This document shows, one piece after another, positions 5,200 through 22,645 of a DNA stretch of 64,000 nucleotides. A model generated the notes under the pieces. The model saw nothing but the letters and a program-made list of their open reading frames with translations, searched no databases and was not told the DNA's origin. Position numbers and translations under genes: made by a program. Where the stretch lies: positions 181,053-245,052 of the forward strand of contig NZ_FKBR01000050.1 in the NCBI RefSeq assembly GCF_900078335.1, read 5' to 3'. The first letter of the stretch is position 1. Every line of letters begins with the position of its first letter. The DNA comes from Bordetella trematum (GTDB lineage Bacteria > Pseudomonadota > Gammaproteobacteria > Burkholderiales > Burkholderiaceae_B).

Positions 5200-5218
5200 G
5201 CCCCGCCCGCAGCGCGAC

Positions 5219-5635
5219 TCAGGCGCGCTTGCCCAGCAGGCCGCCCAATGCGCCCAGCAACTGGCTGGCGTCGGGCAAGCGTGCACTCTCGGCCTTGCCA
5301 TCCGGCGCCGCCAGGTTGACCAGCCGCGGCAGCAGCACGCTCAGGCCGTCCAGCACCGAGGAGCGCTCCTGGCCGCTGCGTTCGGCCAGGCCATCGACCA
5401 GGCCCGGCTCAAGCGCCCGATCCAGGGCTGCGGGCTCGACCGGCTCCGGCTTGCCACCCAGCCAGGCCGCCACAATATTGCCCAGCCCGCCCTGCTGCAA
5501 CTGCTGCAACAGGCCGCCAATGCCGCCAGGGTACTTGCCCAGCATTTCGATCAGGGCCGGCACCAGCGCGGCGGGCCCGCCGCGGTTCGCCAGACTGCCC
5601 ACGGCGGCCGAAGCCAGGGAATCGAACAGACTCAT
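5219..5635 (-). CDS. YidB-like protein (DUF937 family)
   Basis: 138 residues from the ATG at 5635, which has a good AAGGAG Shine-Dalgarno. The opening MSLFDSLASAAVG is typical of YidB/DUF937 proteins. It is followed by glycine-rich amphipathic helices (GGIGGLLQQLQQGGLGNIVAAWLGG) and a C-terminal helix LLGALGGLLGKRA. The function of the family is not established. Proteins of this type are small, soluble and often present as single genes. It is convergent with the universal stress gene (19-base gap) and is followed upstream by a lytic transglycosylase on the same strand. Family assignment by motif style only. Confidence 0.75.
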   Translation of the reverse strand: MSLFDSLASAAVGSLANRGGPAALVPALIEMLGKYPGGIGGLLQQLQQGGLGNIVAAWLGGKPEPVEPAALDRALEPGLVDGLAERSGQERSSVLDGLSVLLPRLVNLAAPDGKAESARLPDASQLLGALGGLLGKRA

Positions 5636-5714
5636 TTCACTCTCCTTCGTACGAATAGAGGGCGAGTATAGGTTGGGCGGCGCCCCCTTCACGCCCGCGC
5701 CGGCTAAAGAATCG

Positions 5715-6929
5715 TCAAGGCTGGGCGCGCAGCGCGCGCAGCGTCTTCTGCCCTGCCCGGCCATCCTCGGGCAGGCCCAGCTCGCGCTGGACCTGTTGCA
5801 GCGCCTGACGGGTGCGGGTGCCGATCACGCCGTCAGGCTTGCCGATATCGTGGCCACGCGCCACCAGCAGCTCCTGGAGTTCGAGGCGTTCGGCACGCGA
5901 CAGGCCGGGATCGTCCGTCGGCCAGGCGCGCGCAAACGGCATCCCGCCCCTCAGGCGGTCGGACAGATGCGCAATGGCCAGCGCATAGCTTTCGGCCGCG
6001 TTGTACGAGTAAAGCGCATCGAAATTGCGGGTCACGAGAAAGGCCGGACCTTGCGGGCCTGCGGGCAGCAGCAGCCCGACAGGCGTGTCGCCTGCCGGCA
6101 AGGCCTGGCCGTCGGCGCGCTTGATGCCGCGCGCAGCCCAGGCCGACATTGCCTGCTTGTTGCGACGGCCGGCCACGCTGGTGTCCATGCCAGGGGGCAG
6201 CGTCACCTCGAAGCCCCAGGTCAGGGCCGGATTCCAGCCTGCACGCTTGAGGAAGTTGGCTGTCGAGGCCAGCGCATCGGGCACGCTGTCGACCAGATCG
6301 CGGCGGCCATCGCCGTCGAAGTCGACCGCCAGGCGCAGATAGGTCGAGGGCATGAACTGGGTCTGACCGAAAGCGCCGGCCCACGAGCCCTTCAGGCGCT
6401 CGGGCGCGACCTGCTCGTCCTGAATGATGCGCATCGTGGCCAGCAGCTCGCCGCTGAAATAACTCTGGCGACGCCCGAAGCAGCTCAGGGTGGACAGCGA
6501 GGTCAGCAAGGGGCGTCCACCCAGGTTCTGGCCAAAGTTGCTTTCCACGCCCCAGACCGCGACCACGGTGGCCGGATCGACCCCGTATTGCTGCTGGACC
6601 CGCGCCAGCACTTCCTGCCATTGGGCCATGCCCTGCTGGCCGTCGTCGATGCGCGCCTGATCCACCAGGGAGGCCATGTAGTCCCAGATCGGCGTCTTGA
6701 ATTCAGGCTGGGCATCCAGAAAGCCGATCACGTCCATGTCAGGGCGAAGGCCCTGCGTGTAGCGATCGAAATTGGCGGGCTTGACCCCCGCCTCAGGCGC
6801 CTTGGCGCGCAGCTGCACCAGGCATTGACGATAGGTATCGAGCTCGGCTGCCGTGGGTTCGGCGGCATTCGCGAGGCTGGCGGCCAGCAGCAGCGGCGCG
6901 CAAAGGGAGATCGGGATCAAGGGCTTCAT
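5715..6929 (-). CDS. Lytic murein transglycosylase (MltB family) with peptidoglycan-binding domain
   Basis: 404 residues. Cleaves the MurNAc-GlcNAc glycosidic bond of peptidoglycan, producing 1,6-anhydromuropeptides in the periplasm. A signal peptide ends near ANA-AE (residues 21-24). There is no lipobox cysteine, so the protein is expected to be soluble periplasmic. The catalytic glutamate is E129 in VWGVESNFGQ, the family signature. FGQTQFMPS and the conserved FDGDGRRDL segment follow. Residues about 345-404 form a PG_binding_1 domain (LQELLVARGHDIGKPDG...TRQALQQVQ). Length agrees with the MltB-like subfamily that carries this C-terminal module. It lies 33 bases downstream of the DUF455 gene, possibly co-transcribed. 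Confidence 0.93.
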   Translation of the reverse strand: MKPLIPISLCAPLLLAASLANAAEPTAAELDTYRQCLVQLRAKAPEAGVKPANFDRYTQGLRPDMDVIGFLDAQPEFKTPIWDYMASLVDQARIDDGQQGMAQWQEVLARVQQQYGVDPATVVAVWGVESNFGQNLGGRPLLTSLSTLSCFGRRQSYFSGELLATMRIIQDEQVAPERLKGSWAGAFGQTQFMPSTYLRLAVDFDGDGRRDLVDSVPDALASTANFLKRAGWNPALTWGFEVTLPPGMDTSVAGRRNKQAMSAWAARGIKRADGQALPAGDTPVGLLLPAGPQGPAFLVTRNFDALYSYNAAESYALAIAHLSDRLRGGMPFARAWPTDDPGLSRAERLELQELLVARGHDIGKPDGVIGTRTRQALQQVQRELGLPEDGRAGQKTLRALRAQP

Positions 6930-6962
6930 GCCGGCATTCTAAACGCCGCCCGACCCGCTGCG

Positions 6963-7766
6963 CTACGGGCCCGGCGGCGCCTGCAACGCCGCAAGTTCGG
7001 CCTCGTCGAAGCCGGCTGCGCGGCGCGCCTCGAGGTTGAAAGGCCCGCGCAGCCTGGGCGCCCCGTAGCGGCGCGAGAGTTCGGCATAGGTGATCAACGG
7101 GTCGACCCCTCGCTCGGCGCAGAAATGGCGATACCAATGGTTGCCAATCGCCACATGACCGATCTCGTCGCGCAGAATGATCTCCAGGATGGCAGCCCCC
7201 CGGGCATCGCCGGCCTGGGCCAACTTGTCGCGGATCAGCGGCGAGGCATCCAGGCCGCGCGCCTCCAGGGTGCGCGGCACCAAGGCCAGGCGCGCCAGCA
7301 GATCATCGCGGGTTCTTTGCGCCATGTCCCACAGGCCGTTATGAGCCGGGAAGTCCCCATAGGCGTGGCCCAGCGTGGCCAGATGACGGTTGAGCAGATC
7401 GAAGTGATAGGCCTCTTCGCGCGCCACCCGCAGCCAGTCGCGATAGAACGTCCCGGGCAGCCCGGCGTAGCGCCAGATGGCATCGAGCGCCAGATTGATG
7501 GCGTTGAATTCGATGTGGGCCAGCGCATGCAGCAGGGCGGCACGGCCCTGCGGGCTCTGCACCGACCGCTGCGCCACCTGCGACGGCGGCACCAGCTCGG
7601 GTTGCGCCGGACGGCCGGGCAGATCCGGCGGCTCGGCCAGCTCCTGATCCTGACCCAGCGCCAGGGTATCGTCCAGGCCCGCCACGGCGGCCAGCTTGTC
7701 CTGCCAGCTGCGCGCCGCCAGGGCCGCCCGTGCCTGGGTTCTCAGGGTCGTTGCCTGCCCTTGCAT
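6963..7766 (-). CDS. DUF455 ferritin-like protein
   Basis: 267 residues from the ATG at 7766, preceded by AAAGGAGAA. The DUF455 family adopts a ferritin-like four-helix fold. Likely metal ligands are visible as HIEFNAINLALD, REEAYHF and RDEIGHVAIGNHWY, where two ExxH motifs and paired glutamates are the signature of a di-iron or di-manganese centre. The reaction is not known for the family. A possible role in modifying tRNA or small molecules is speculation. It is divergent from the DUF482 gene with a 59-base shared promoter region, and upstream of mltB on the same strand. Confidence 0.85.
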   Translation of the reverse strand: MQGQATTLRTQARAALAARSWQDKLAAVAGLDDTLALGQDQELAEPPDLPGRPAQPELVPPSQVAQRSVQSPQGRAALLHALAHIEFNAINLALDAIWRYAGLPGTFYRDWLRVAREEAYHFDLLNRHLATLGHAYGDFPAHNGLWDMAQRTRDDLLARLALVPRTLEARGLDASPLIRDKLAQAGDARGAAILEIILRDEIGHVAIGNHWYRHFCAERGVDPLITYAELSRRYGAPRLRGPFNLEARRAAGFDEAELAALQAPPGP

Positions 7767-7825
7767 AGTGCTCTGTTCTCCTTTCTGTCGCCCCCCGGGG
7801 GGAGGCGGCACTTTATCATTGCGGC

Positions 7826-8971
7826 ATGACCGACGCTTACCGCCTGCAGGCCGACACGCCGCTGCACGATCTGGACCCCGCGCAATGGGATGCGCTGGCC
7901 GGCGACCACCCCACCCTGCGCCATGGCTATTTCTCGGCGCTGCACGACACCGCCTGCGCCAGCCCGAAGACAGGCTGGACCCCGTTTTTCCTCACGCTGC
8001 ATCGCGACACGACCCTGGCGGGCGTGGTGCCGCTGTATCTCAAGATGCATTCGCGTGGCGAGTATGTCTTCGATCAGGGCTGGGCCGATGCCTATGCGCG
8101 CCACGGCTTGCGCTACTACCCCAAGCTGCTGGCAGCCGTGCCCTTCACCCCCGTACCCGGTCCCCGGCTGCTGGCCGAGGATGACGCCGCACGCGGCCTG
8201 CTGGCGCAAGGCCTGGTGACGTTAGCCCGCCAGATCAAAGTGTCCTCACTGCACGTACTGTTCGGTGCAGATGCCGATATGGCCGCGCTGCACCAGGCCG
8301 GCTGTCTGCTGCGTCAGGGCATACAGTTTCATTGGCGCAATGCCGGCTACGCCGGTTTCGAGGACTTTCTGGGGCAGTTCCGCCACGACAAGCGCAAGAA
8401 GCTGCGCCAGGACCGCAAAAAGGTGTTCGGCCAGGGCATCCGTTTCCGGCACCTGGAGGGCGCGGCTATCGGCCCGCGCGAGCGCGAATTCTTCTACGCC
8501 TGCTACCGCAACACTTATCTGGCGCATGGCAACCTGCCTTACCTCAACCCGGAATTCTTCGAGCAACTGCAGGCCAGCCAACCGGGCGCGCTGATGATGG
8601 TGCTGGCCGAAAAGGACGGCGAACCACTGGCCTGCGCACTCAATCTGCAGTCAGCCGACACCCTCTATGGCCGTTACTGGGGCGCCACCACCTATGTGCC
8701 GGGCCTGCACTTCGAGACCTGCTACCTTCAGGCCATCGAATACTGCATCCGGCGCGGGTTGACGCGATTCGAGGGCGGCGCGCAAGGCGAACACAAGATG
8801 GCCCGCGGCCTGATGCCCACGCCGACCTGGTCGGCCCACTGGCTGGCGGATGCGCGTTTCACGGCCGCCGTGGATGATTTTCTGCAACACGAGACGGCGG
8901 CCGTCAATGAGTACCTCGACGACCTGGCCCGGCATACCCCGCTGCGCCGGGAGGATGACCAGGCGGGCTAG
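7826..8971 (+). CDS. GNAT-like acyltransferase, DUF482 (FemAB-like) family
   Basis: 381 residues. DUF482/PF04339 proteins have tandem GNAT-like folds resembling FemABX aminoacyl transferases, and are often labelled peptidoglycan biosynthesis proteins although the substrate is unproven. Recognisable landmarks are HGYFSALHDTACASPKTGW near residues 33-51, VPLYLKMHSRGEYVFDQGWADAY, FRHDKRKKLRQDRKK and the C-terminal ARGLMPTPTWSAHWL. There is no signal peptide, so it is cytoplasmic. It is divergent from DUF455 and overlaps the stop of the convergent DUF1854 gene by 4 bases. Family identity is confident, substrate unknown. Confidence 0.88.
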   Translation: MTDAYRLQADTPLHDLDPAQWDALAGDHPTLRHGYFSALHDTACASPKTGWTPFFLTLHRDTTLAGVVPLYLKMHSRGEYVFDQGWADAYARHGLRYYPKLLAAVPFTPVPGPRLLAEDDAARGLLAQGLVTLARQIKVSSLHVLFGADADMAALHQAGCLLRQGIQFHWRNAGYAGFEDFLGQFRHDKRKKLRQDRKKVFGQGIRFRHLEGAAIGPREREFFYACYRNTYLAHGNLPYLNPEFFEQLQASQPGALMMVLAEKDGEPLACALNLQSADTLYGRYWGATTYVPGLHFETCYLQAIEYCIRRGLTRFEGGAQGEHKMARGLMPTPTWSAHWLADARFTAAVDDFLQHETAAVNEYLDDLARHTPLRREDDQAG

Positions 8972-9435
8972 AGGAAACGATCCAGCAGCTTGCGGCTGTG
9001 GCGATCAAGTGCCTGGGCGTCGCGGATCAGGTAATGAATGCCATGCATGTCCGAGATCAGCAGGGTCGGCCCGTTCAGGCGCCGGATGTCTTCTTCGCCG
9101 CGCAGCACGAAATGGGTTTCGCCCCGGTCGGTGGCGACGCGCCAGGTCGAGGGCGTGGCGTAGGTCGACACGGACAGCAAGCGCTGGATCTCGGGCATGA
9201 ACTCGCGCGCGGCCAGCTCGTCTTCGATCAGGGCGCGTGCCGCGGCCGGCGCCTGGCCCAGGTCATCCAGCCACAAGGCCTCACGCCCGTCGGCCGTCAT
9301 CAAGGCCAGCCCCTGCTGCGGCGCACTGATCGGAAAAGCACGCACCGGCACGATGCCCTCGTAGGCGCGCCCCTCAAGCAGCAGCACCAGACGCCCCTGG
9401 GGGTTGCGCTGCAGTTCAAATGCTCGGGTCACCAT
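8968..9435 (-). CDS. DUF1854 protein associated with cyanophycin metabolism
   Basis: 155 residues, soluble, no signal peptide or membrane helix. Matches the DUF1854 style: an N-terminal beta-rich part (FELQRNPQGRLVLLLEG), the centre VRAFPISAPQQGLALM, and a helical/beta C-terminus with THFVLRGEEDIRRL and LISDMHGIHYLIRD. This family is regularly found beside cyanophycin synthetase genes, and that is the case here. It starts 11 bases after the stop of the ABC exporter gene, so the two form an operon. A role as an accessory or regulatory subunit for the exporter or for polymer handling is inference. No catalytic residues can be named. Confidence 0.82.
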   Translation of the reverse strand: MVTRAFELQRNPQGRLVLLLEGRAYEGIVPVRAFPISAPQQGLALMTADGREALWLDDLGQAPAAARALIEDELAAREFMPEIQRLLSVSTYATPSTWRVATDRGETHFVLRGEEDIRRLNGPTLLISDMHGIHYLIRDAQALDRHSRKLLDRFL

Positions 9436-9446
9436 GGTCTGCTCGC

Positions 9447-11714
9447 TCAGGATGCTTCGTCGCCGGCCGGCTCGCCAGCCAGATTTTCATTGTTTCGCAA
9501 CTGCGCCTGGTAAAGACGGTAGTAGGCCCCCTGGCGCGCCATCAAGGCCTCGTGCGGGCCCTGCTCGACGATCTGGCCCCGATCCAGCACCACCAGCCTG
9601 TCGGCCCGTCGCAGCGTACTCAGGCGATGGGCGATGGCGATGGTGGTGCGCCCGCGCACCAGATTGTCGAGCGCTTTCTGGATTTCTTTCTCGGTGGTGG
9701 TATCCACCGACGATGTGGCCTCATCGAGAATCAGGATGCGCGGATCGATCAGCAGCGCGCGCGCGATCGAGATGCGTTGCCGCTCCCCGCCCGACAGCGC
9801 CTGGCCGCGCTCGCCCACCAGCGAGTCATAGCCTTGCGGCAGCCGCAGGATGAACTCGTGGGCATGCGCCGCGCGTGCGGCCGCCATGATTTCCTCACGG
9901 CTGGCCTCGGGCCGCCCATAGGCGATGTTGTCGGCGATGGTGCCGAAAAACAGGAAAGGCTCCTGCAGCACCAGGCCGATATGGCGCCGGTAGTCCGCCA
10001 CGCGCAGGGAGCGTATGTCCTTGCCGTCGACCAGCACCGCGCCTTCGGTGACGTCGTAGAAGCGGCAGATGAGATTGACCAGCGTACTTTTCCCCGAGCC
10101 GCTGTGGCCTACCAGGCCGATCATCTCGCCCGGCGCGATGGAAAGATTCATGTCGCGCATGACCGAGCGGTTGCCGTAGCGGAACCCCACGTCGCGCAAG
10201 GTGATGCGCCCTTGCACCTGCGGCAGCGGCTGCGGCTTGACCGGCTCGGGCACGCTGGAGACATGATCCAGGATGTCAAAGATGCGCTTGGCCCCGGCGG
10301 CCGTTTTCTGGGTCACGGAAACGATGCGGCTCATCGAGTCCAGACGCGTGTAGAAGCGCCCGATATAGGCCAGGAAAGCGGCCAGCACGCCCACGGTGAT
10401 CTGCTTCTGGGAGACTTGCCAGATGCCGAAAATCCAGACGACCAGCAGACCGATCTCGGTCAGCAGGGTGACGGTGGGCGTGAACAGCGACCACACCCGG
10501 TTGACGCGGTCATTGACCTCCAGGTTGCGGTTGTTGGCCTCGCGAAAACGCTGCACCTCACGGTGTTCCTGGGCGAACGCCTTGACCACCCGGATGCCGG
10601 GAATGGTATCGGCCAGCACGTTGGTGATTTCCGACCAGATGCGGTCCACTTTCTCAAAGCCATGGCGCAGACGGTCGCGCACCACATGGATCAGCCACAT
10701 GATGAGCGGCAGCGGCGCCAGTGTCACCAGGGCCAGCCAGGGATTGATCGTGAACAGGATGATGGCCGTCATCACGATCATCAGCACATCGGTGGCGAAA
10801 TCCAGCAGATGCAGCGAAAGGAATACGCAGATGCGATCCGACTCGCTGCCGATGCGCGACATGAGATCACCGGTGCGCTTGCCGCCGAAATACTCCAGCG
10901 ACAGCGTCTGCAGGTGGGCGTAGGTGGTGGTGCGCAAGTCCGCGCCGATGCGCTCGCTGACCTTGGCCAACAGGTAGGTGCGCGCCCATCCCAGCACCCA
11001 TGCCACCAGGGCCGACGCCAGCAGGCCGCCCAGGTAGAGCTGCACCTTGCCGTAATCGATCGCCTCGCCATTCTGGAACGGGATCAGCACGTCGTCCATG
11101 AGCGGCATGGTCAGATAGGGCGGCACCAGCGTGGCGGCCGTGGCCAGCACGGTCAGCACAAAGCCGCTGATCAGAGGCACCCGGTAGGGATGGGCAAAAC
11201 GCCACAGACGCAACAACGCCCATCCTGTGGCGGCCCGCGGCGCCTCATGGCAAGCCGGGCAGTGCTCATCCTGAGCCGGCAGCGGCTCCTGGCAGGTCGG
11301 GCACAGCTGGGTCCCGGCGTTGTCCGCCCGCAACGCCGGCGCCTGCAGGCTGTCGAACAGCGCCACCAGTTTGATTGCGGCCGGGTTGTGGCCAAGCGTA
11401 AACCGCCACTGCGCCAGGCGCCCGGATGGGCCCTCCAGCGTCAGGCTGGCCGCGCCGGCGTGATCCAGCAGCGTCAGGGACTGCCCGGGCTGCCGAGCAA
11501 AGGTCTGCCAGTCCTGAGACTGGGGCGCCTGCGCCAGCAAGCGCCTGTCGGTCAGCACCAGCAAGCCAGGATGAAAGCACAACCTGGCATCGAGGTCTGT
11601 TTCCAGCCAGGCCAGCACGGTTTCACGCGGCTGCAGACGAGCCTGCACCGCGTCCTGCCACCGCGAGGGCAGCTCGCGCCCCGAGGGGCGGCTTTCAAGG
11701 TCGAGCAATGTCAT
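9447..11714 (-). CDS. Cyanophycin-associated ABC exporter with N-terminal PH-like region and zinc ribbon
   Basis: 755 residues from the ATG at 11714. A TTG further upstream is possible but less likely. Residues 1 to about 130 resemble a bacterial PH/GRAM-like module (LCFHPGLLVLTDRRLL). A C4 zinc ribbon follows, with cysteine pairs near 138/141 and 152/155. Then comes a type I exporter transmembrane domain (about 180-470) and an ATPase domain. Walker A has its lysine at about 542 (GHSGSGKST), followed by signature LSGGERQR, Walker B ILILDEATSSVD and the H-loop IAHRLS. One chain holds TMD plus NBD, so a homodimer is expected in the inner membrane. It is divergent from the cyanophycin synthetases and co-transcribed with DUF1854. 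The cargo is unknown; a link to cyanophycin or its dipeptide is inference from context. Confidence 0.88.
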   Translation of the reverse strand: MTLLDLESRPSGRELPSRWQDAVQARLQPRETVLAWLETDLDARLCFHPGLLVLTDRRLLAQAPQSQDWQTFARQPGQSLTLLDHAGAASLTLEGPSGRLAQWRFTLGHNPAAIKLVALFDSLQAPALRADNAGTQLCPTCQEPLPAQDEHCPACHEAPRAATGWALLRLWRFAHPYRVPLISGFVLTVLATAATLVPPYLTMPLMDDVLIPFQNGEAIDYGKVQLYLGGLLASALVAWVLGWARTYLLAKVSERIGADLRTTTYAHLQTLSLEYFGGKRTGDLMSRIGSESDRICVFLSLHLLDFATDVLMIVMTAIILFTINPWLALVTLAPLPLIMWLIHVVRDRLRHGFEKVDRIWSEITNVLADTIPGIRVVKAFAQEHREVQRFREANNRNLEVNDRVNRVWSLFTPTVTLLTEIGLLVVWIFGIWQVSQKQITVGVLAAFLAYIGRFYTRLDSMSRIVSVTQKTAAGAKRIFDILDHVSSVPEPVKPQPLPQVQGRITLRDVGFRYGNRSVMRDMNLSIAPGEMIGLVGHSGSGKSTLVNLICRFYDVTEGAVLVDGKDIRSLRVADYRRHIGLVLQEPFLFFGTIADNIAYGRPEASREEIMAAARAAHAHEFILRLPQGYDSLVGERGQALSGGERQRISIARALLIDPRILILDEATSSVDTTTEKEIQKALDNLVRGRTTIAIAHRLSTLRRADRLVVLDRGQIVEQGPHEALMARQGAYYRLYQAQLRNNENLAGEPAGDEAS

Positions 11715-11828
11715 TCGAACAGGTTTCGATTCCGACCATCGGCCCGCGAGAACAGCGCTCCCGATCAAGGGCTTCGACCTGTCCTTTCTTTACAACAGCG
11801 CGAGTGCAATTAGGCGTAAAGGCGGCGT

Positions 11829-11972: not shown

Positions 11973-14585
11973 ATGAAGAAAAAAGACATTGAATTTCTCG
12001 ATGTCGTGGCCCTGCGCGGCCCTAACATCTGGACCTACCGCCCCGTGCTTGAAGCCTGGGTAGATATCGGGGAGCTCGAGGACTACCCCTCCAACGTCAT
12101 TCCGGGTTTCTACGAACGCCTGACCGCCTGGCTACCCTCGCTGATCGAGCACCGCTGCAGCCCTGGCGTGCGCGGGGGCTTTCTGCAACGGCTGCGGGAA
12201 GGCACCTGGCCCGGCCACATTCTCGAACACGTCACTCTGGAGCTGCAGAATCTGGCCGGCCTGCCGGGCGGCTTCGGCAAGGCGCGCGAGACGTCCACGC
12301 GCGGCGTCTACAAGGTGGTCGTGCGAGCCTGGCACGAGACGGTCACCCGGGCCGCCCTGGACACCGCGCGCGACCTGGTCATGGCCGCCATCGAAGACCG
12401 GCCTTTCGATGTGGACACGGCCGTCGCCAGTCTGCGCCGCCTGGTCGACCGCCATTGCCTGGGTCCCAGCACCGCCTGCATCGTGGATGCCGCCGATGAC
12501 CGCGACATTCCCTATATCCGCCTGTTTGAAGGCAATCTGGTGCAGTTCGGCTATGGGGCGCGCCAACGGCGCATCTGGACGGCAGAAACCGACCGCACCA
12601 GCGCCATTGCCGAAGGCATCTCGCGCGACAAGGACCTGACCAAATCCATCCTGGAAACCTGCGGCGTACCGGTGCCCGAAGGCGAGCGCGTCGACAGCGC
12701 AGCACAGGCCTGGGAGATCGCCCAACAGATCGGGCTGCCGGTGGTGGTCAAGCCCTACGATGGCAACCATGGCCGTGGCGTGTTCACCAATCTCGCCTCA
12801 CGCGAGGAAGTCGAGGCGGCCTATGCGGTTGCCGTGGACGAAGGCAGCGGCGTCATCGTGGAGCGATTCGTCCCCGGCAATGAACATCGCCTGCTGGTCG
12901 TGGGCGGGCGCCTGGTCGCCGCGGCGGCAGGCGAGCCCGCCTGGGTGGTCGGCGACGGCCAGGGCAGCGTGCGCGAGCTGATCGAAAGCCAGATCAACAC
13001 CGACCCCCGCCGCGGTCGCAGCGAAGATCACCCGCTCAACCCGGTGCGGCTGGACTCGGCCGCACGCCTGGAGATTGCCCGCCAGGGGCTGGAGGCCGAC
13101 AGCGTGCCCGCCGCCGGACAACGCGTGCTGGTGCAGCGCAGCGGCAACGTGGCGTTCGACGTCACCGACCGGGTGCATCCCGACACCGCCGAACTCGTCT
13201 CCCTGGCCGCCCGGGCGGTCGGTCTGGACATCGCGGGCGTGGATCTCGTGGCCGAGGACATCGCGCGACCGTTGGCCGAACAGCGCGGCGCCATCGTGGA
13301 GGTCAATGCCGGCCCCGGGCTGCTGATGCATCTGAAGCCGGCCGACGGCCAGCCGCGTCCGGTGGGCCGCGCCATCGTCGATCATCTGTTCCCCGCCGGC
13401 GACGACGGCCGCATTCCGGTGGTGGGCGTGACCGGCACCAACGGCAAGACCGTGGTCGCTCGCCTGGTCGCGCGTTTGCTGCATCTGTCAGGCAAGCAGA
13501 CGGGCCTGGCCTGCAGCGACGGCCTGTATCTGGGCCGCCAGTGGGTGCAGAAAGGCGACGGCGCCAACTGGGCCACCGGACGCCGCGTACTGATGAACCG
13601 CAACGTCGAGGCGGCGGTCATCGAGAACGACAGCGCCGTGATCCTGGGCCAGGGACTGGCCTACGACCGCTGCCAGGTCGGCGTGGTCACGAACATCGAC
13701 GAAGGCGACCACCTGGGGGACTTCGATATCCACGAAGCCGACCGCCTGTTCAATATTTTCCGCACCCAGGTCGACGTGGTGCTGCCGGGCGGGGCCGCCG
13801 TGCTCAACGCGCGCGATCCGCGCGTCGTCGAAATGGCCGAACTGTGCGATGGCGACGTGCTGTTCTTTGCCATCGACCCGGCCCTGCCGGTCATGCGGGA
13901 ACACCGTCGACAGGGCCGCCGCGCGGTGTTCGTGCGCGATGGCCAGATCATGCTGGCGCGTGGCGCCGATGAAGAACGTCTGGCCGCAATCGACGCCGTG
14001 CCGCTCACGCATGGTGGACGGGTCGATTTCCAGACCGAGAACGTGCTGGCTGCCGTGGCCGCGGCCTGGGCGCTCGATTTGCCGGTGGCGGTGATCCGCG
14101 CCGGCATCGAGACATTCCAGATAGACCATGCCGAAGCGCCCTGGCAGTTCACCGTCTTCCAGCGTGGCGACGTGACCGCCGTGGTCGATGATGTCCACAA
14201 CGCCGCCGGCCTGCGCGCCCTGGCCGCAGCCGTGCCGCGTTTTCCCGCCCGGCGTCGGGTGGCCGTTTATGCCGCCGGGGCAGATCGCCGCGACGTCGAC
14301 CTGGTCGAGCAGGGCCGCCTGCTGGGCGAACTGTTCGACCGCGTCGTGCTGTATGACGACGCCACCGTCACCAGCCGGCGCCCGCCCGGTCAGGCGCGCG
14401 CACTGCTGCGCCAAGGCCTGAACGAGAGCAGCCGCGCACCGCAGGTCATCGATGAACCCGATCACGGCCGTGCCATCGACCAGGCCTTGTTCGCAGCGGC
14501 CCCGGAAGACTTCATCCTGCTGCAGACCGATGAAGCCGCCTCCGGCCCGACCATGGAACAGGTCCGTCGCTGGACCCAGATCTGA
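11973..14585 (+). CDS. cphA: Cyanophycin synthetase-like protein, upstream copy with degenerate Mur-ligase motifs
   Basis: 870 residues, the normal CphA length. Family enzymes polymerise aspartate and arginine into multi-L-arginyl-poly-L-aspartate: the ATP-grasp domain adds Asp and the Mur-ligase-like domain adds Arg. Here the N-terminal domain and ATP-grasp are well kept: K260 in VVVKPYDGNHGRG, RLLVVGG, and VEVNAGPGLLMHLKP. The Mur-type P-loop GTNGKT is at 488-493. Two motifs conserved in the downstream copy are altered. ETARGG is replaced by ENDSAV (551-556) and DYGHNP by DDVHNA (739-744). The tyrosine-acidic-RGR motif near the end is also gone. It is intact, so not a pseudogene. It may have a changed or lost arginine-adding step, or act as a partner of the downstream enzyme (inference). 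Confidence 0.88.
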   Translation: MKKKDIEFLDVVALRGPNIWTYRPVLEAWVDIGELEDYPSNVIPGFYERLTAWLPSLIEHRCSPGVRGGFLQRLREGTWPGHILEHVTLELQNLAGLPGGFGKARETSTRGVYKVVVRAWHETVTRAALDTARDLVMAAIEDRPFDVDTAVASLRRLVDRHCLGPSTACIVDAADDRDIPYIRLFEGNLVQFGYGARQRRIWTAETDRTSAIAEGISRDKDLTKSILETCGVPVPEGERVDSAAQAWEIAQQIGLPVVVKPYDGNHGRGVFTNLASREEVEAAYAVAVDEGSGVIVERFVPGNEHRLLVVGGRLVAAAAGEPAWVVGDGQGSVRELIESQINTDPRRGRSEDHPLNPVRLDSAARLEIARQGLEADSVPAAGQRVLVQRSGNVAFDVTDRVHPDTAELVSLAARAVGLDIAGVDLVAEDIARPLAEQRGAIVEVNAGPGLLMHLKPADGQPRPVGRAIVDHLFPAGDDGRIPVVGVTGTNGKTVVARLVARLLHLSGKQTGLACSDGLYLGRQWVQKGDGANWATGRRVLMNRNVEAAVIENDSAVILGQGLAYDRCQVGVVTNIDEGDHLGDFDIHEADRLFNIFRTQVDVVLPGGAAVLNARDPRVVEMAELCDGDVLFFAIDPALPVMREHRRQGRRAVFVRDGQIMLARGADEERLAAIDAVPLTHGGRVDFQTENVLAAVAAAWALDLPVAVIRAGIETFQIDHAEAPWQFTVFQRGDVTAVVDDVHNAAGLRALAAAVPRFPARRRVAVYAAGADRRDVDLVEQGRLLGELFDRVVLYDDATVTSRRPPGQARALLRQGLNESSRAPQVIDEPDHGRAIDQALFAAAPEDFILLQTDEAASGPTMEQVRRWTQI

Positions 14586-14603
14586 ACCCAGCCCTTTATC
14601 GCC

Positions 14604-14629
14604 GGCGCCGCCCCTGGCGGCGCCCTTTT
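14604..14629 (+). terminator. Terminator-like hairpin between the two cphA genes
   Basis: A perfect 9-bp stem (GGCGCCGCC with GGCGGCGCC), a 3-base loop and a following CTTTTG, lying 18 bases after the first synthetase stop and 18 bases before the second start. The U-run is short, so partial termination or a processing/stability hairpin is more likely than a full stop. Confidence 0.55.
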
Positions 14630-14646
14630 GGACGCCCAAGACCCCT

Positions 14647-17220
14647 ATGGAAGTCTCCCGAATCCGCGCCCTTCGCGGCCCCAATCTCTGGAGCCGCAAT
14701 ACCGCCATCGAGGCGGTCGTCACCTGCTCCGAGACAGAGTGCGCCATCGACGGCATCGCCGATTTCGAAGCGCACCTGCGCGCCCGCCTGCCCCAGATCG
14801 GCCTGCTGCGGCCCGAGGGCCATGGCGGCGCCGTTTCCATGGCGCATGTGCTGCAGGTCATTGCCCTGGCATTGCAGGCGCATGCCGGTTGCCCGGTCAC
14901 CTTCGGACGCACCTCGGCCACAGCCGAACCCGGCGTCTACCAGGTGGTGGTCGAGTACAGTGAAGAAGAGGTCGGACGCCTTGCTCTCGAGCTGGCCGAA
15001 ACCCTGATCGAGGCCGCACGCCAGGACCTGCCCTTCGATCTGCCCCAGGCGCTGGCGCGGCTGCGTGAGCAGGATGAAGACATCCGCCTGGGGCCCTCGA
15101 CCGGCTCCATCGTGAACGCGGCCGTGGCGCGCGGCATCCCCTATCACCGCCTGACGCAGGGCAGCCTGGTGCAGTTCGGCTGGGGCAGCCGCCAGCGCCG
15201 CATCCAGGCCGCCGAAACCGACCACACCAGCGCCATCTCCGAGTCCATCGCCCAGGACAAGGACCTGACCAAGATGCTGCTGGACGCCGCCGGCGTGCCG
15301 GTCCCGATGGGCCGAAGCGTCGATAGCGCCGAAGCCGCCTGGGAGGCGGCACAGATGCTGGCCGGCCCGGTGGTGGTCAAGCCGCGCGACGGCAGCCAGG
15401 GGCGCGGCGTGGCCGTCAACATCGACACCCGCGAACGCGTGCTGGCCGCCTATGAGGCGGCCGCGCAGATCAGCGACGAAGTCATCGTCGAGCGCTACAT
15501 CCCCGGCCACGATTTCCGCCTGCTGGTGGTCGGCCAGACGCTGGTGGCCGCCGCCAGACGCGATCCGCCACAGGTTACCGGAGACGGCCTGCACAGCATT
15601 GCCGAGCTGGTCGAGCAGGTCAACACCGACCCCTTGCGCGGTGATGGCCACGCCACCTCGCTGACCAAGATCCGGCTGGACGACATTGCGCTGGGCGTGC
15701 TGCAGAAACAGGGCTATGAACCGGCCAGCGTACCGCCGGCAGGCAGCCTGGTGGTGTTGCGCAACAATGCCAACCTGAGCACCGGCGGCTCGGCCACCGA
15801 CGTGACCGACGAAGTCCACCCCGAGATGGCCGCGCGCGCCGTGACGGCGGCCCGCATGATCGGGCTCGATATCTGCGGCGTGGACGTGGTGGCGGAGTCG
15901 GTTCACCTGCCGCTGGAAGCCCAGCATGGTGGCGTGGTCGAGGTCAACGCCGCCCCTGGCCTGCGCATGCACCTGACGCCGTCGTTCGGCAAGGGGCGCG
16001 CCGTCGGGGAGGCCATCATCGGCCAGATGTTCGCCGATGGCGACGATGCCCGCATCCCGGTGGTCGCCGTCTCGGGCACCAACGGCAAGACCACCACGGT
16101 GCGCCTGACCGCCCATCTGCTGGGCATGAACGGGCGCTGCGTAGGCATGACCAACTCCGATGGCGTCTACATTGGCAAACGCCGCATCGACGCCGGCGAT
16201 TGCAGCGGTCCGCGCAGTGCGCGCCGCGTCCTGCTGCACCCGGACGCGGACGCCGCCGTCTTCGAAACGGCGCGCGGCGGCGTCCTGCGCGAGGGCCTGG
16301 CCTTTGACCGCTGCGATGTCGCGGTGGTCACCAATCTGGGCATGGGCGATCACCTGGGCCTGGGGCATATCGGCACCATCGACGAACTCGCGCGCGTCAA
16401 GCAGGTCATCGTGCAGTACGTGCGTGAAGGCGGGATGGCGGTGCTCAATGCCGCCGATCCGCTGGTCGCCGCCATGGCCGGCGCCTGCCCGGGCCGCATC
16501 ACCTACTTCGCCACCGACGGACATCATCCGTTGCTGGCCACGCACCGGGCCCAGGGCGCACGCGTGGTCTACCGTGACGATGACGCCATCGTCGCCGCCG
16601 AAGGCGAACAGGTCACGCGCCTGCCGCTGGCCGACATCCCGCTCACCTTGGGCGGACGCATCGGTTTCCAGGTCGAGAATGCCATGGCCAGCATCGCCGC
16701 GGCCTGGGCCCTGGGGCTGGACTGGACGCTCATCCGGGCCGGGCTGGCCAGTTTTGTCTCCGACGCCGGCACCGTCCCGGGCCGCTTCAATATCTTCGAC
16801 TATCGGGGCGCAACCCTGATCGCCGACTACGGACACAATCCTGATGCCATCCAGGCGCTCGCCCAGGCCGTCCAGTCGCTGCCGGCTACGCGGCGCAGCG
16901 TGGTCATCAGCGGCGCCGGCGACCGGCGCGACGAAGACCTGCGCCAACAGACCGAGATCCTGGGAGCGCACTTCGATAGCGTGTTTCTCTACGAAGACCA
17001 GTGTCAGCGCGGCCGCGCCGATGGCGAAGTCATCGCCTTGCTGCGCCAGGGCCTGAAGGGGGCGACCCGCAGCCGTCATATCGAAGAAATTCGCGGCGAG
17101 TTCGCCGCCATTGATCGGGCGCTGGAGCAGATCCAGCCCGGCGAGCTGTGCCTGATCCTGGTCGACCAGGTCGAGGCGGCGCTGGACTACCTCGCCCGTC
17201 AGGCTGCCAGCCCGGCCTGA
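14647..17220 (+). CDS. cphA: Cyanophycin synthetase, canonical copy
   Basis: 857 residues from the ATG at 14647. Makes cyanophycin granules from Asp and Arg with two ATP per cycle, in the cytoplasm. Domains in order: N-terminal domain (1 to about 160), ATP-grasp (about 215-470, K245 in VVVKPRDGSQGRG, EVNAAPGLRMHLTP) and Mur-ligase domain. The last has P-loop GTNGKT at 477-482, ETARGG at 540-545, DYGHNP at 727-732 and YEDQCQRGR near 785. All motifs expected of an active CphA1 are present. It is 61 bases downstream of a divergent paralogue, separated by a hairpin. No cyanophycinase or isoaspartyl dipeptidase is in this window. The start has no strong Shine-Dalgarno, so translation could be coupled or weak. 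Confidence 0.95.
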   Translation: MEVSRIRALRGPNLWSRNTAIEAVVTCSETECAIDGIADFEAHLRARLPQIGLLRPEGHGGAVSMAHVLQVIALALQAHAGCPVTFGRTSATAEPGVYQVVVEYSEEEVGRLALELAETLIEAARQDLPFDLPQALARLREQDEDIRLGPSTGSIVNAAVARGIPYHRLTQGSLVQFGWGSRQRRIQAAETDHTSAISESIAQDKDLTKMLLDAAGVPVPMGRSVDSAEAAWEAAQMLAGPVVVKPRDGSQGRGVAVNIDTRERVLAAYEAAAQISDEVIVERYIPGHDFRLLVVGQTLVAAARRDPPQVTGDGLHSIAELVEQVNTDPLRGDGHATSLTKIRLDDIALGVLQKQGYEPASVPPAGSLVVLRNNANLSTGGSATDVTDEVHPEMAARAVTAARMIGLDICGVDVVAESVHLPLEAQHGGVVEVNAAPGLRMHLTPSFGKGRAVGEAIIGQMFADGDDARIPVVAVSGTNGKTTTVRLTAHLLGMNGRCVGMTNSDGVYIGKRRIDAGDCSGPRSARRVLLHPDADAAVFETARGGVLREGLAFDRCDVAVVTNLGMGDHLGLGHIGTIDELARVKQVIVQYVREGGMAVLNAADPLVAAMAGACPGRITYFATDGHHPLLATHRAQGARVVYRDDDAIVAAEGEQVTRLPLADIPLTLGGRIGFQVENAMASIAAAWALGLDWTLIRAGLASFVSDAGTVPGRFNIFDYRGATLIADYGHNPDAIQALAQAVQSLPATRRSVVISGAGDRRDEDLRQQTEILGAHFDSVFLYEDQCQRGRADGEVIALLRQGLKGATRSRHIEEIRGEFAAIDRALEQIQPGELCLILVDQVEAALDYLARQAASPA

Positions 17221-19350: not shown

Positions 19351-20730
19351 TCACCAGGCCACGAAGAACAGCCACCAGGCCACACAGAACGGCGCCAGGC
19401 CGACACCCGCCACGCACCACGCCAAAGCGCGGCGCAATGGGCTGGCGGGCCGGCGCAGCAAGATCCGCCCCAGCAATCGCAGGGTCCAGACCAGCGCGAG
19501 GGTCAGCAGGGTGAAGCGCAAGGGCAGCACCCAGCTGGTGCCGACCCCTTCGTGCTTGAGCAACGTGACAGTGGTGGCCGACAGCCCCAGGAACACCCCC
19601 ACCCCGGCACAGGGAATCAAGGCCTGTGCCAGCTTGTGCACCCCCGCCATCGGCGTGGCGGCCTGGGCTGGCGGCGCCAGGCGGTTGGCCAGCCACAACG
19701 CCACGAAGCTCGCTCCCCCGACGCAGACGACCGCCCCCACCACGAACGTCAGGATGCCCAGGCCGTCCAGCCAGGAAAAGCTGTCGTTCACCTCGGGGTA
19801 GTGCGTCAGGATGAACCAGGGCGCGTTATCGATCAGCGGCCAGGTGATGTCCTGCCCGATGAGCCAGGTCGCCAGCCATTGCTTGAACGTGACGAACCAG
19901 GGACTGGCGCTCCAGAGGAAAGCGCCGATGGCAACACCCATCAGGCCGAAGCAGATCAAGGCGGTCTGCCACGCATCCCCCTGGGCCAGATGCACGATTT
20001 CGGCCTCGGGCGAGCGCGGCGTCAACGCAATGGCGCCCCGGTAATCGCTGCAGCGCCCGCACATATGACACTCGCCCGCACCCTTCATGTGGCGCAAGGG
20101 CACCAGCGGTGCACAGTTGATGGGCTCGATGCGTATCACCGGATGTCGCCAGGCTTGTTCGTCGACCTTGTAATGCCAGGGGGCCAGCTTGGCCAGCAGA
20201 TTGAAGACACCGTTGACCGGGCAGAGATAGCGGCACCAGACGCGCTTGCTGCGGCCGTAGCGAAATCCCACGATCATGGCCGCCACGGTCGAGCCACCCA
20301 GGATGGCCAGCACGGCCAGCGGATACTGGTAAACGCTCACCAGCTGACCGTAGACCGTGGTGAGCACAAAGGCCACGAAGGGCCAGCCGCCCCAGCGCAT
20401 CCATTTCGGGATGGCGCGTCCCTCACCGCGCTCGCTGGCCCATTCGGTCAGCATGCCTTCCGGACAGAGCCAGCCGCACCAGGCACGGCCCAGCAGCGGC
20501 ATCGACACCAGCACGAAGGGCCACCACACGCCCCAGAAGGCAAACTGCGCCAGCACGGTCAGGTTGTTGAAGACCGATGCCGTATAGTCCGGCAAGGGCA
20601 GGAAAGGGGGGACCAGCAACAGAAAGGCGTAAATGGCGACAATGCCCCACTGCAGCTTGCGCAACAGCGAGGCATGATCACGAAGGAAATCGGCCAGGCG
20701 GGCCGTCATGCGGCCCAGCGAAGAAACCAT
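19351..20730 (-). CDS. ftrD: FtrD, polyferredoxin-like membrane protein of ferrous iron uptake
   Basis: 459 residues, at least six transmembrane segments, with ferredoxin-type cysteine clusters: CGWLCPEG near 84-91, CRYLCPVNG near 166-174 and CHMCGRC near 221-227. In Bordetella FtrD is proposed to pass electrons for the iron oxidation/reduction step coupled to the FtrC permease. It resembles NapH/CcoG-type proteins, but the position directly after FTR1-type permease, cupredoxin and P19-type genes makes FtrD the right name. It is last of the four-gene operon, 27 bases after ftrC. Confidence 0.92.
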   Translation of the reverse strand: MVSSLGRMTARLADFLRDHASLLRKLQWGIVAIYAFLLLVPPFLPLPDYTASVFNNLTVLAQFAFWGVWWPFVLVSMPLLGRAWCGWLCPEGMLTEWASERGEGRAIPKWMRWGGWPFVAFVLTTVYGQLVSVYQYPLAVLAILGGSTVAAMIVGFRYGRSKRVWCRYLCPVNGVFNLLAKLAPWHYKVDEQAWRHPVIRIEPINCAPLVPLRHMKGAGECHMCGRCSDYRGAIALTPRSPEAEIVHLAQGDAWQTALICFGLMGVAIGAFLWSASPWFVTFKQWLATWLIGQDITWPLIDNAPWFILTHYPEVNDSFSWLDGLGILTFVVGAVVCVGGASFVALWLANRLAPPAQAATPMAGVHKLAQALIPCAGVGVFLGLSATTVTLLKHEGVGTSWVLPLRFTLLTLALVWTLRLLGRILLRRPASPLRRALAWCVAGVGLAPFCVAWWLFFVAW

Positions 20731-20757
20731 GATGCAATCCTGTGAGCGGAAAACCTC

Positions 20758-21591
20758 TTAGCGGGCAGGCGCCCCGACGCGGCGGTCCGCGCGGCGCAAC
20801 AGCGCCCACACGACCAGCCAGTACGCCAGCCAGAGCAGCACCGAACTGAGTGCCGGGTAGGCGCGATAGCCCGCAAAGTCAGCCAGAATCTTGCCCACGC
20901 CGCTGCTGTCATCGAGCAGCCAGGCGCTGTCCCAGACCGGATCGATCAGGGTCGGCAACACATCCAGCGAAATCAGGTGATCCAGGCCGCCGACCAGCAA
21001 GGCGCCGGCCAACAGCAGAAGCAACACTTCGGTAATGCGGAAGAAGCGTCGCCAGGTAATCAGCTTTCCGCCCAGCTGCAACAGCCAGAACGTCACCAGG
21101 GCGACGACGAAACCCCCCAGCCCGGCCAGCGCCAGCATCGCGGGGCTGCCGCCATCGCGGGCCGCAGCCACCGTGCCGTAGAGAAACACCACCGTCTCGC
21201 TGCCCTCGCGGGCCACGGCGATCATCACCAGCACCAGCACGCCCCACCAGCTGTCGTGCTCGGCGGAGGCGCGCGCGCCGGACTCCAGCTCATTCTTGAG
21301 CGTGCGGCCATGGCGCCGCATCCAGACGACCATCTGCACCACCAGCACGCAGGCCAGCAGCGACATCCCGGCCTGGAACCACTCCTGGCCGGTATCGCTC
21401 AGCCACTCGGAGACGCCCAGCAGCACCAGCGCCAGCATGACGGCCAGCCCGAGCCCTGCCGCCACGCCCCCCCAGAGATAGGGCAGGCCACGACGGCCCT
21501 GGGGCGTCGCACGCAGCCACGAGTACAGAATGCCCACCACCAGCAGGGCTTCGACGCTTTCGCGCCAGACAATGAATGCAACCTGTTCCAT
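20758..21591 (-). CDS. ftrC: FtrC, FTR1-family high-affinity iron permease
   Basis: 277 residues, seven hydrophobic segments. The two REXXE-type iron-binding motifs of FTR1/EfeU permeases are R10-ESVE (RESVEALL) and REGSE at 128-132. The protein is the inner-membrane channel that moves oxidised iron into the cytoplasm. It follows ftrB after 15 bases and precedes ftrD, in the FtrABCD order. The length fits bacterial FTR1 proteins without the extra periplasmic domain found in EfeU-type fusions. Confidence 0.94.
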   Translation of the reverse strand: MEQVAFIVWRESVEALLVVGILYSWLRATPQGRRGLPYLWGGVAAGLGLAVMLALVLLGVSEWLSDTGQEWFQAGMSLLACVLVVQMVVWMRRHGRTLKNELESGARASAEHDSWWGVLVLVMIAVAREGSETVVFLYGTVAAARDGGSPAMLALAGLGGFVVALVTFWLLQLGGKLITWRRFFRITEVLLLLLAGALLVGGLDHLISLDVLPTLIDPVWDSAWLLDDSSGVGKILADFAGYRAYPALSSVLLWLAYWLVVWALLRRADRRVGAPAR

Positions 21592-21606
21592 AACGCCCGT
21601 CCGGGC

Positions 21607-21945
21607 TCAATCCTTGGGCTTGACGACCAGCGTCCCTTTCACGTCGGGGTGAAAGTCGTCGAAAAAGGGATACTCGCCGGGCCGGGAAATCGTGATCACG
21701 ACGAACGATCTGACCCCTGGCCCAAGCACTTTCTCCTTGCGCAGCGGGATGCTCTCGAACTCGACCGGCTCGTTGCTTGCGTTGACGAGTTCAATCTTGA
21801 AGCGGCCGGCCGGCACCTCCAGCCGCGCCGGCTCGAAAGTGCCATCCGGCTTGAACGTGAGCGTGAATGTCGGCAGGTCCGAAGCCTGCGCGCTCAACGG
21901 CCCGCCCAGCAACATCGCAAACAGAAACGCCCACAGGATGCGCAC
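21607..21945 (-). CDS. ftrB: FtrB, periplasmic cupredoxin-like protein
   Basis: 112 residues with a signal peptide (MRILWAFLFAMLLGGPLSAQA, cleavage near 21-22). The mature part is a single cupredoxin-like beta-sandwich (FTLTFKPDGTFEPARLEVPAGRFKIELVNAS...GEYPFFDDFHPDVKGTLVV). FtrB is proposed to oxidise Fe(II) in the periplasm for the permease. Typical type 1 copper ligands are not obvious apart from the histidine in DDFHPD. It starts 2 bases after the ftrA stop, so translation is probably coupled. Confidence 0.9.
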   Translation of the reverse strand: MRILWAFLFAMLLGGPLSAQASDLPTFTLTFKPDGTFEPARLEVPAGRFKIELVNASNEPVEFESIPLRKEKVLGPGVRSFVVITISRPGEYPFFDDFHPDVKGTLVVKPKD

Positions 21946-21947
21946 GA

Positions 21948-22487
21948 TCAGTACCCACCCTTCTTGCCGGTGCCGGCGTAGACGAACTCATATTCCAGCT
22001 GGATCGGATCGAACCACGGACCCACCCCAGTCTCTTTGTCGATGTGACGCCCGAAGTGCGCCATCTTGTTGGCCGTCGGCGGCAGAATGGTGTACTTGAG
22101 CTGGTACTTGCCCGGGCCTTCGAGCTTGATGTTTTCGCCATAGTGCGGGCCATCGTTGGCCACCATCGGCATCAGTTCGCCCTTTTGCACGTTCTGGCTG
22201 CCCACCTTCTGGATTTCGTAATTCACCACCAGGTAGGGCATCCATTCGCCCTCGGGAAAACCCGTCGGGTTGTTGGCCAGGGCATGGATGTCGGCTTCCA
22301 GGTGGATGTCCGAGTCCTTGGCCGGGCGCATCATTCCCGGCGGATCCATCTCGACCGGCTGCAGGTAGACCGCACCGATTTCCATGCCGCCTTTCTCGAC
22401 CGGCTTGCCGATCGGGTACTCGACGGCCTGAGCGGCACCGGAGACAGTCATTGCGGCCAGGGCCAGCCAGAGGGCTTTCTTCAACAT
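21948..22487 (-). CDS. ftrA: FtrA, P19-type periplasmic iron-binding protein
   Basis: 179 residues from the ATG at 22487, preceded by GAGGAAAAG. A signal peptide ends near GAAQA-VEYP (residue 21). The mature protein matches the P19/Tpd iron-transport family: YPIGKPVEKGGMEIGAVYLQPVEM, PAKDSDIHLEADIHA with metal-binding histidines and acids, FPEGEWMPYLVVNYEI, and GPHYGENIKL. It binds iron (and copper) in the periplasm and hands it to FtrB/FtrC. First gene of the ftr operon, downstream of an AT-rich Fur-like region and separated from phaR by a terminator. Confidence 0.94.
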   Translation of the reverse strand: MLKKALWLALAAMTVSGAAQAVEYPIGKPVEKGGMEIGAVYLQPVEMDPPGMMRPAKDSDIHLEADIHALANNPTGFPEGEWMPYLVVNYEIQKVGSQNVQKGELMPMVANDGPHYGENIKLEGPGKYQLKYTILPPTANKMAHFGRHIDKETGVGPWFDPIQLEYEFVYAGTGKKGGY

Positions 22488-22530
22488 GGGCTTTTCCTCG
22501 GTAAGTGTCAGCTTACGAAAGCAATCTAAA

Positions 22531-22556
22531 TAATAAGTGTTCTTATTAATGATAAA
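22531..22556 (-). promoter_or_regulatory. Candidate Fur operator upstream of ftrA
   Basis: An AT-rich island in GC-rich DNA, with an AATAAG / CTTATT dyad (4-base spacer) followed by TTAATGATAA. It lies 44-69 bases ahead of the ftrA ATG. The match to the 19-bp Fur consensus is only moderate, much weaker than the box upstream of fecI. Iron control of ftr in Bordetella is established knowledge; the exact site is inference. Confidence 0.4.
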
Positions 22557-22597
22557 AGCGCAGCGCTGACAGCCTCCTGAATTTTTCGGCCCTTCAG

Positions 22598-22626
22598 AAA
22601 ACAAAAGGGCGCTCCAGAGAGCGCCC
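22598..22626 (-). terminator. Intrinsic terminator of the pha block
   Basis: On the minus strand an 8-bp stem GGGCGCTC / GAGCGCCC with a 4-base loop is followed by TTTTGTTTT. It lies 20 bases beyond the phaR stop and separates phaR from ftrA. Confidence 0.85.
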
Positions 22627-22645
22627 AAGGCATTTACAGACGGTT

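Follow-up and report, generated by a model that had tools for sequence, protein, structure and literature searches.

Two tandem cyanophycin synthetase-like genes of Bordetella trematum have reciprocally lost active sites and are associated with an ABC exporter and a DUF1854 protein

The tandem genes and their domains

A stretch of 64,000 nucleotides of the Bordetella trematum genome (assembly GCF_900078335.1, contig NZ_FKBR01000050.1, positions 181,053 to 245,052; hereafter the window) carries two adjacent cyanophycin synthetase-like genes located on the same strand and separated by a spacer of 61 bases. Both the upstream gene (U, 11973-14585, ATG at 11973, 870 aa) and the downstream gene (D, 14647-17220, ATG at 14647, 857 aa) are open reading frames. 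Their products share 47% identity, score over the cut-offs of the NCBIfam models NF010623 and TIGR02068 and are the sole strong CphA matches in this 4.44 Mb genome. The features of the two genes are as follows.

11973-14585, +: U, the upstream cyanophycin synthetase-like protein, which retains the N site and has a rebuilt aspartate pocket and a degenerate Mur site
12150-12230, +: U N-domain peptidase motif HRC-x19-HILEH, U residues 60-86 (H57, C59, H79, E82 and H83 of SuCphA1)
12750-12782, +: U ATP-grasp P-loop KPYDGNHGRGV with His266 (His267 of SuCphA1; role from PMC9427784)
12918-12944, +: U AAAAGEPAW, Gly320 replacing the aspartate-binding Arg323
13131-13160, +: U G-omega loop VQRSGNVAFD, about 5 residues shorter than in CphA1 in the N394/S396 loop
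13305-13331, +: U NAGPGLLMH, Leu451 replacing the aspartate-binding Arg458
13623-13640, +: U ENDSAV, replacing the Mur-type ETARGG
14187-14204, +: U DDVHNA, replacing the Mur-type DY(A/G)HNP
14647-17220, +: D, the downstream cyanophycin synthetase, which has lost the N site and has an intact aspartate pocket and an intact Mur site
14806-14859, +: segment of D listed on the basis of the alignment to SuCphA1 and the conservation counts
15379-15411, +: D ATP-grasp P-loop KPRDGSQGRGV, Gln replacing His267
15760-15789, +: D aspartate-recognition loop RNNANLSTGG, N394 and S396 present
16264-16281, +: D Mur-type ETARGG, intact
16825-16842, +: D Mur-type DYGHNP, intact

The alignments to SuCphA1 span residues 8-829 of U and 5-849 of D, so that each protein contains the N, G and M domains in one chain. 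U and D thus share with CphA1 (SuCphA1 and TeCphA1) the order of the domains and homology over nearly their whole length. They differ from it in that the active sites are divided between them, neither protein having all of them, and in their link to an exporter.

A preliminary description of this DNA had presented both genes as intact and of normal length; both are indeed open and of nearly normal length, and the motifs it reported were found again: ENDSAV at residues 551-556 and DDVHNA at residues 739-744 of U, GTNGKT kept in U (residues 488-493), no RGR segment in U (residues 794-806 read YDDATVTSRRPPG), and GTNGKT, ETARGG, DYGHNP and YEDQCQRGR all present in D. Its statement that motif loss is confined to the upstream copy is wrong, as D lacks the Cx19HxxEH motif of the N domain, is deleted for a segment around residues 67-74 of SuCphA1 and has Gln in place of His267. 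Its view that U keeps the ATP-grasp half holds for the fold, the ATP/Mg ligands and His267; it does not hold for the aspartate pocket (R323, S396 and R458), and the loop carrying N394 and S396 is shortened in U compared with CphA1. The reciprocal nature of the losses, the adjoining exporter and DUF1854 genes and the scarcity of cyanophycinase had been missed.

Reciprocal loss of active sites in U and D

To map residues on SuCphA1 numbering, 341 distinct sequences, whole or partial, were aligned (156 of U, 155 of D and 30 further CphA1-like ones), proteins scoring less than 350 bits to both queries and identical copies having been removed (349 reduced to 341). For the conservation counts (155 U, 152 D and 29 other CphA1), U proteins also had to be at least 640 aa long and not located at an edge, and the D and other CphA1 proteins had to exceed 800 aa. 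The functions of residues are taken from PMC9262961 and PMC9427784. The sets considered include the residues of the N-site motif Cx19HxxEH (C59, H79, E82 and H83), which lets CphA1 cleave its own product into primers (PMC9262961), the aspartate pocket (R323, S396 and R458) and the Mur core set (G498, K499, T/S500, E558, R561, G562, G563, D585 and H586).

The N-site motif is complete in all 155 U, in none of the 152 D and in 25 of the 29 other CphA1. The reverse is found for the Mur core set, the Mur lid residues and the aspartate pocket, each of which is complete in no U (0/155), in every D (152/152) and in 27 of the 29 other CphA1. The pattern thus recurs throughout the distinct U proteins counted and is no local accident of this genome. 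Nearly all proteins have a full set of ATP ligands in the ATP-grasp (153/155 U, 152/152 D and 29/29 other CphA1). His267 is kept in 150/155 U and 25/29 other CphA1 and in only 4/152 D, Gln being found in 148/152. Changes specific to D chiefly consist of this replacement and of the deletion of the N-site segment. Glu215 is replaced both in D (Ser in 113 and Ala in 32 of 155) and in U, the two consensus sequences having a Glu one position earlier.

The state of the Mur half differs among U proteins. Most of them (108/155) are shorter than 790 aa with the lid gone, the D745 column being empty in 106/156, and the Mur P-loop is altered in 60/155. U of the window is among the 45 full-length ones and keeps the Mur P-loop and the length of the lid, without the lid motif residues. 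The replacements in the Mur site vary among species (R561 is replaced by Ser in 68, Ala in 29, Pro in 24 and His in 8 of 156 U), which looks like decay. Those in the ATP-grasp pocket of U are uniform: S185 to Asn (fraction 0.99), A203 to Thr (0.99), D307 to Glu (0.99), R323 to Gly (0.97), A393 to Gly (0.94), R458 to Leu (0.95) and deletion of 396-399 (1.0). The state of N394 depends on the alignment (deleted by phmmer, Asn in 146/156 U with MAFFT), S396 being deleted in both. Such uniform replacements in the pocket, unlike those of the variable Mur site, look like a change of the acceptor.

The divergence of U relative to that of D was also compared by region. For 44 pairs of full length, U/D ratios below 1 are found in the N domain (0.58) and the two parts of the G core (0.89 and 0.77), and ratios above 1 in G-omega (1.42), the Mur core (1.27) and the lid (2.17). 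For the 106 pairs with a shortened U, the ratios are 0.87 for the N domain, 0.99 and 1.06 for the G core, 1.48 for G-omega and 1.66 for the Mur core.

With a complete N site in 155/155 proteins and an open gene in the window, U is not a simple pseudogene; likewise, the lost N site rules out that D is a fully canonical enzyme. Pseudo-enzyme partners are common, and two of the three catalytic sites of U are changed. U could thus be a catalytically dead structural or regulatory partner, whose conserved motifs would serve folding or metal binding only. This appears improbable, as the four N-site residues are invariant across 155 sequences and the N domain of U diverges less than that of D in both sets of pairs (0.58 and 0.87).

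In three pairs of one family (L112, L113 and L114), the ATP-grasp residues of U are damaged and the N site is complete. In one of them (L113, genome G290), several ATP-grasp ligand residues of U are missing and the N-site motif is retained, an indication that the N site can by itself be reason enough for U to be maintained.

Another explanation of the loss of the Mur half is that U is an independently arisen CphA2-like ligase, whose ATP-grasp would join beta-Asp-Arg dipeptides or oligomers. Relevant here are the chains 7ta5 and 8fxh, which we take to be CphA2 (the 7ta5 record reads glutathione synthase). Like U, chain 7ta5 has a hydrophobic residue at R458 and an HLKP segment (Phe in PGIFMHLKPA, near PGLLMHLKPA of U). 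Moreover, CphA2 has neither Mur P-loop nor lid (PMC9427784); in U, the lid is lost in most proteins and the P-loop altered or lost in 60/155, the window's own U keeping the P-loop. The ATP ligands are kept in 153/155 U. However, both chains keep R323 where U has Gly, the N-site motif present in all 155 U is absent from CphA2 (PMC9262961), His267 is lost in 5/155 U, and U differs from CphA2 in being paired with D. A CphA2-like role of U is regarded as rather unlikely.

Pairing and phylogeny of U and D

D is located directly downstream of U, on the same strand, in 156 of the 160 U loci (four pairs with identical U included), with a median gap of 47 bases. All loci with just one of the two genes (four with U, two with D) lie at contig ends. 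In one locus (L041, genome G011, 5033-7847), D is spread over two open reading frames, which reflects either an assembly error or real damage.

In a tree without CphA2 sequences, built on the columns of the N domain, the G domain and the Mur core, the U proteins (155) group in a single clade (support 1.0) and 150 D in another (0.90), and U, D and the protein of locus L133 together form a clade (1.0) apart from other CphA1s. The preliminary description had raised the question whether the upstream copy forms a conserved clade always paired with a canonical copy: the tree agrees with the clade and the gene neighbourhoods with the pairing, whereas the partner, which lacks the N site, is not canonical. 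Among the best 80 of 551 confirmed relatives, the carriers of full-length U proteins include Achromobacter, Cupriavidus, Pandoraea, Ralstonia and Bordetella species, and those of shortened ones Herbaspirillum, Collimonas, Gallionella and Rhodocyclaceae genomes. On plasmids, 22 records match U, with a best identity of 39.5%, which is lower than the 41-49% identity to U found for most D proteins.

Locus L133 (genome G729, contig 9) carries a single CphA that adjoins exporter and DUF1854 genes. Its N site and aspartate pocket are intact, its Mur residues are intact as far as the contig is cut, and it has Gln267. This protein, known from one end-cut contig of a genome listed at 8% contamination, may represent the unsplit state. 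Among relatives of this genome, the exporter was found in 1/48 and CphA in 1/41, in each case the genome itself.

Tandem synthetase genes are already known in beta-proteobacteria (Ralstonia eutropha H16, Sideroxydans/Gallionella and Herminiimonas), as is the missing cyanophycinase: the two genes are adjacent in Sideroxydans, and Sideroxydans and Herminiimonas are described as devoid of cyanophycinase (PMC5178258, PMC5670224, PMC8560796). The published tandem strains are putative carriers of U/D pairs, and the named Cupriavidus, Ralstonia and Gallionella loci do carry U and D. The present description differs in that no statement of reciprocal site loss or of an exporter module was found in the passages of these accounts that were consulted. 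More generally, no account of the reciprocal loss was found in the literature examined, most subscription journals being outside its reach. In Variovorax paradoxus, a 27-fold increase unique to biofilm is given for a cyanophycin synthetase, Varpa_1128 (PMC7494200, Table 1).

Association with an ABC exporter and a DUF1854 protein

Two genes encoded on the opposite strand lie upstream of U in the window.

9447-11768, -: ABC exporter (membrane domain and ATPase), NCBIfam NF052233, divergent from U
8968-9435, -: DUF1854 protein, NCBIfam NF052234

Both score far over the curated cut-offs of models named 'cyanophycin metabolism-associated ABC transporter' (1400.9 bits, cut-off 880) and 'cyanophycin metabolism-associated DUF1854 family protein' (224.6 bits, cut-off 150). 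The association of the module with cyanophycin is therefore already stated by the NCBIfam names, whereas its tie to the split pair, and not to a single CphA1, comes from the present analysis. A literature search retrieved no paper for DUF1854 and none for 'cyanophycin metabolism-associated'.

The exporter and DUF1854 genes sit upstream of U and are usually divergent from it, all four genes being on one strand in nine loci. Of the 160 U loci, 153 have the exporter and 137 have DUF1854 in the flank examined, many flanks being only 3 kb long. In a 200-genome sample of the order, the association of the module with the pair was assessed by a Fisher test. A single set of 68 genomes, all of which bear the pair, has both the exporter and DUF1854, and neither gene occurs in any of the 131 genomes without the pair; U occurs in these 68 genomes and in G122, where a short contig ends within the exporter region (69 pair genomes). 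In G115, G034, G146 and G183, the exporter and DUF1854 are present without adjoining the pair. Outside this sample, the exporter was found in 8/8 further pair genomes, in three pair genomes of family f142 and in 0/20 genomes carrying other CphA1-like genes (one of which, in G427, is divergent). The U/D pair is therefore part of a four-gene module with the exporter and DUF1854.

The Walker and signature motifs of the exporter are conserved in its alignment. The N terminus of the window exporter (9447-11768) is extended ahead of the membrane domain and bears a four-cysteine CxxC...CxxC motif, which about 134/152 copies carry. The predicted fold of the DUF1854 protein is confident (mean pLDDT 94.4); the model had no Foldseek match in the PDB at E <= 0.001. 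A FemAB-like gene (PF04339, 7826-8971 in the window) adjoins the DUF1854 gene in 17/160 loci, all from Achromobacter or Bordetella, many other loci having flanks too short to show this gene.

Scarcity of cyanophycinase

Cyanophycinase (TIGR02069) was found over the cut-off in 13 of the 200 genomes, and 31/200 have a match at E <= 0.001. The 13 genomes comprise 6/6 genomes with a single complete CphA1, 4/69 pair genomes (G056, G102, G068 and G021) and 3 others. This comparison omits G136, which has a divergent N-dead copy and no cyanophycinase over the cut-off, as well as five genomes whose matches are weaker (G010, G016, G027, G053 and G156). Weak matches under the cut-off occur in the pair genomes G112, G183, G075 and G005. 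This scarcity agrees with the 2.8% of 903 beta-proteobacterial CphA1 genomes found to have a cyanophycinase in Table 2 of PMC10206079.

The genome G056 also has a second locus (L104, 2248-9534), apart from U/D, in which two N-dead CphA1-like genes with Gln267 face each other, a cyanophycinase gene being located just upstream of one of them.

These data could mean that U stands in for the missing cyanophycinase: D would make storage cyanophycin, which the endopeptidase of the U N domain would both prime and mobilise, the exporter being used otherwise, for example for dipeptides. The low frequency of cyanophycinase, both in the pair genomes and in PMC10206079, is in keeping with this proposal, as is the presence in the window genome of an Asparaginase_2 gene (PF01112, IaaA family) that could finish the degradation. 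Furthermore, the pair is treated as a storage system in PMC5178258. However, it leaves unexplained why the exporter and DUF1854 follow the pair so strictly. In addition, CphA1 cleaves several-fold more slowly than it synthesises, and the chains largely persist in the presence of CphA1s that bear the site (PMC9262961). Finally, the R. eutropha genes gave no detected cyanophycin (PMC8560796). We thus hold such a role of U to be unlikely, if worth bearing in mind.

A possible division of labour between U and D

Taken together, the reciprocal site loss, the adjacency of the genes and their co-occurrence with the exporter and DUF1854 are directly observed. They are consistent with the sites of cyanophycin synthetase being shared out between two proteins that would work with the ABC exporter and the DUF1854 protein, the best-supported interpretation, to which we give roughly even chances. 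From the sequences, we infer a U-D complex, the peptidase activity and ATP-grasp chemistry of U, the activity of D, the export and the nature of the product. The process could be viewed as follows. D, which has no primer-making site, would add aspartate by its ATP-grasp and arginine by its Mur domain and would thereby grow the chain. U would no longer add arginine, and the metallopeptidase site of its N domain would cut the growing chain into primers and short pieces. The remaining domains of U would probably serve as an assembly scaffold beside D, its ATP-grasp, which keeps the ATP ligands, being seemingly rebuilt to take an acceptor that is not free aspartate. The short product would probably leave the cell via the ABC transporter and not be kept as insoluble granules. 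Given the presence of the exporter, release of a short product would be the most economical account of the module.

Such a function of U in trans has a precedent, as the isolated N domain of SuCphA1 supplies primers to TmCphA1 in vitro (PMC9262961). Among the roles suggested for U in the preliminary description (one half-reaction, a different amino acid, primer handling or regulation of a hetero-oligomer), primer handling fits best, because the peptidase motif that generates primers is the one catalytic motif left complete throughout the 155 U counted; a changed acceptor at the ATP-grasp of U is plausible.

Several observations weigh against this division of labour. Replacement of His267 by Ala lowers or abolishes the activity of TeCphA1 and SuCphA1 (PMC9427784, PMC9262961), the other solved CphA1 chains compared keep this His, and 148/152 D have Gln. 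Similarly, the Glu215Ala change costs TeCphA1 most of its activity (PMC9427784), and Glu215 is replaced in both D and U. The addition of aspartate by D is thus not certain. The objection concerning Gln267 is softened by the L133 protein and by two N-dead CphA1s of one genome, which carry Gln267 with an intact pocket. Engineered SuCphA1 heterodimers with the N site on the other protomer were somewhat less active without primer than those in which one protomer bore all the sites (PMC9262961). When the Ralstonia eutropha H16 genes were expressed, no cyanophycin was detected (PMC8560796), so that the product may not be cyanophycin, and PMC5178258 interprets the pair as serving nitrogen storage or pH buffering. 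We infer the export step only from the family of the transporter. The N loss in D and the Mur loss in U probably each go back to one event in an ancestor; the counts given above therefore show long retention and not many independent losses. Lastly, in a tree restricted to the ATP-grasp, the node uniting U, D and L133 has a support of just 0.23 (U and D still being clades, with 0.96 and 0.97), and L133 groups with D (0.98) instead of U, with which it groups in the other tree.

A composite ATP-grasp site, with His267 from U and the aspartate pocket from D, was also considered. It was set aside, as these residues belong to the site of one protomer in the solved enzyme, Glu215 of the neighbour excepted (PMC9427784). 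The occurrence of Gln267 with an intact pocket in L133 and the two N-dead CphA1s also disfavours it. A possible compensation was seen, D having His267 in 2/5 pairs where U has lost it and in 2/144 otherwise (p 0.005 in a Fisher test that used 147 instead of 144); this signal comes from two genomes of one family.

To our knowledge, no cyanophycin-type synthetase has turned from storage to secretion. A speculative and rather unlikely elaboration is that the module makes and exports a soluble, end-modified Asp/Arg isopeptide: D would polymerise, the N domain of U would trim, the ATP-grasp of U would cap the C-terminus with a non-amino-dicarboxylate acceptor, and the exporter, helped by DUF1854, would release the product.

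A sharing of the sites between U and D would provide a testable reason for several puzzling features of the beta-proteobacterial duplicates, namely that no cyanophycin was detected from the R. eutropha genes, the scarcity of cyanophycinase and the tandem copies themselves. It predicts that U and D need to be tested jointly and that the product should be sought outside the cell. If true, it would be a natural example of a multi-site polymerase divided into chain-growing and primer-cutting proteins, which would help in adjusting the chain length of an industrially interesting biopolymer.

Other features of the window

Upstream of U, seven regulatory consensus patterns were examined and none was clearly enriched. 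Downstream of D, a run of genes (19351-22628) that by eye resembles an iron uptake system presumably encodes a polyferredoxin-like protein, an FTR1-like permease and a P19-like periplasmic protein.

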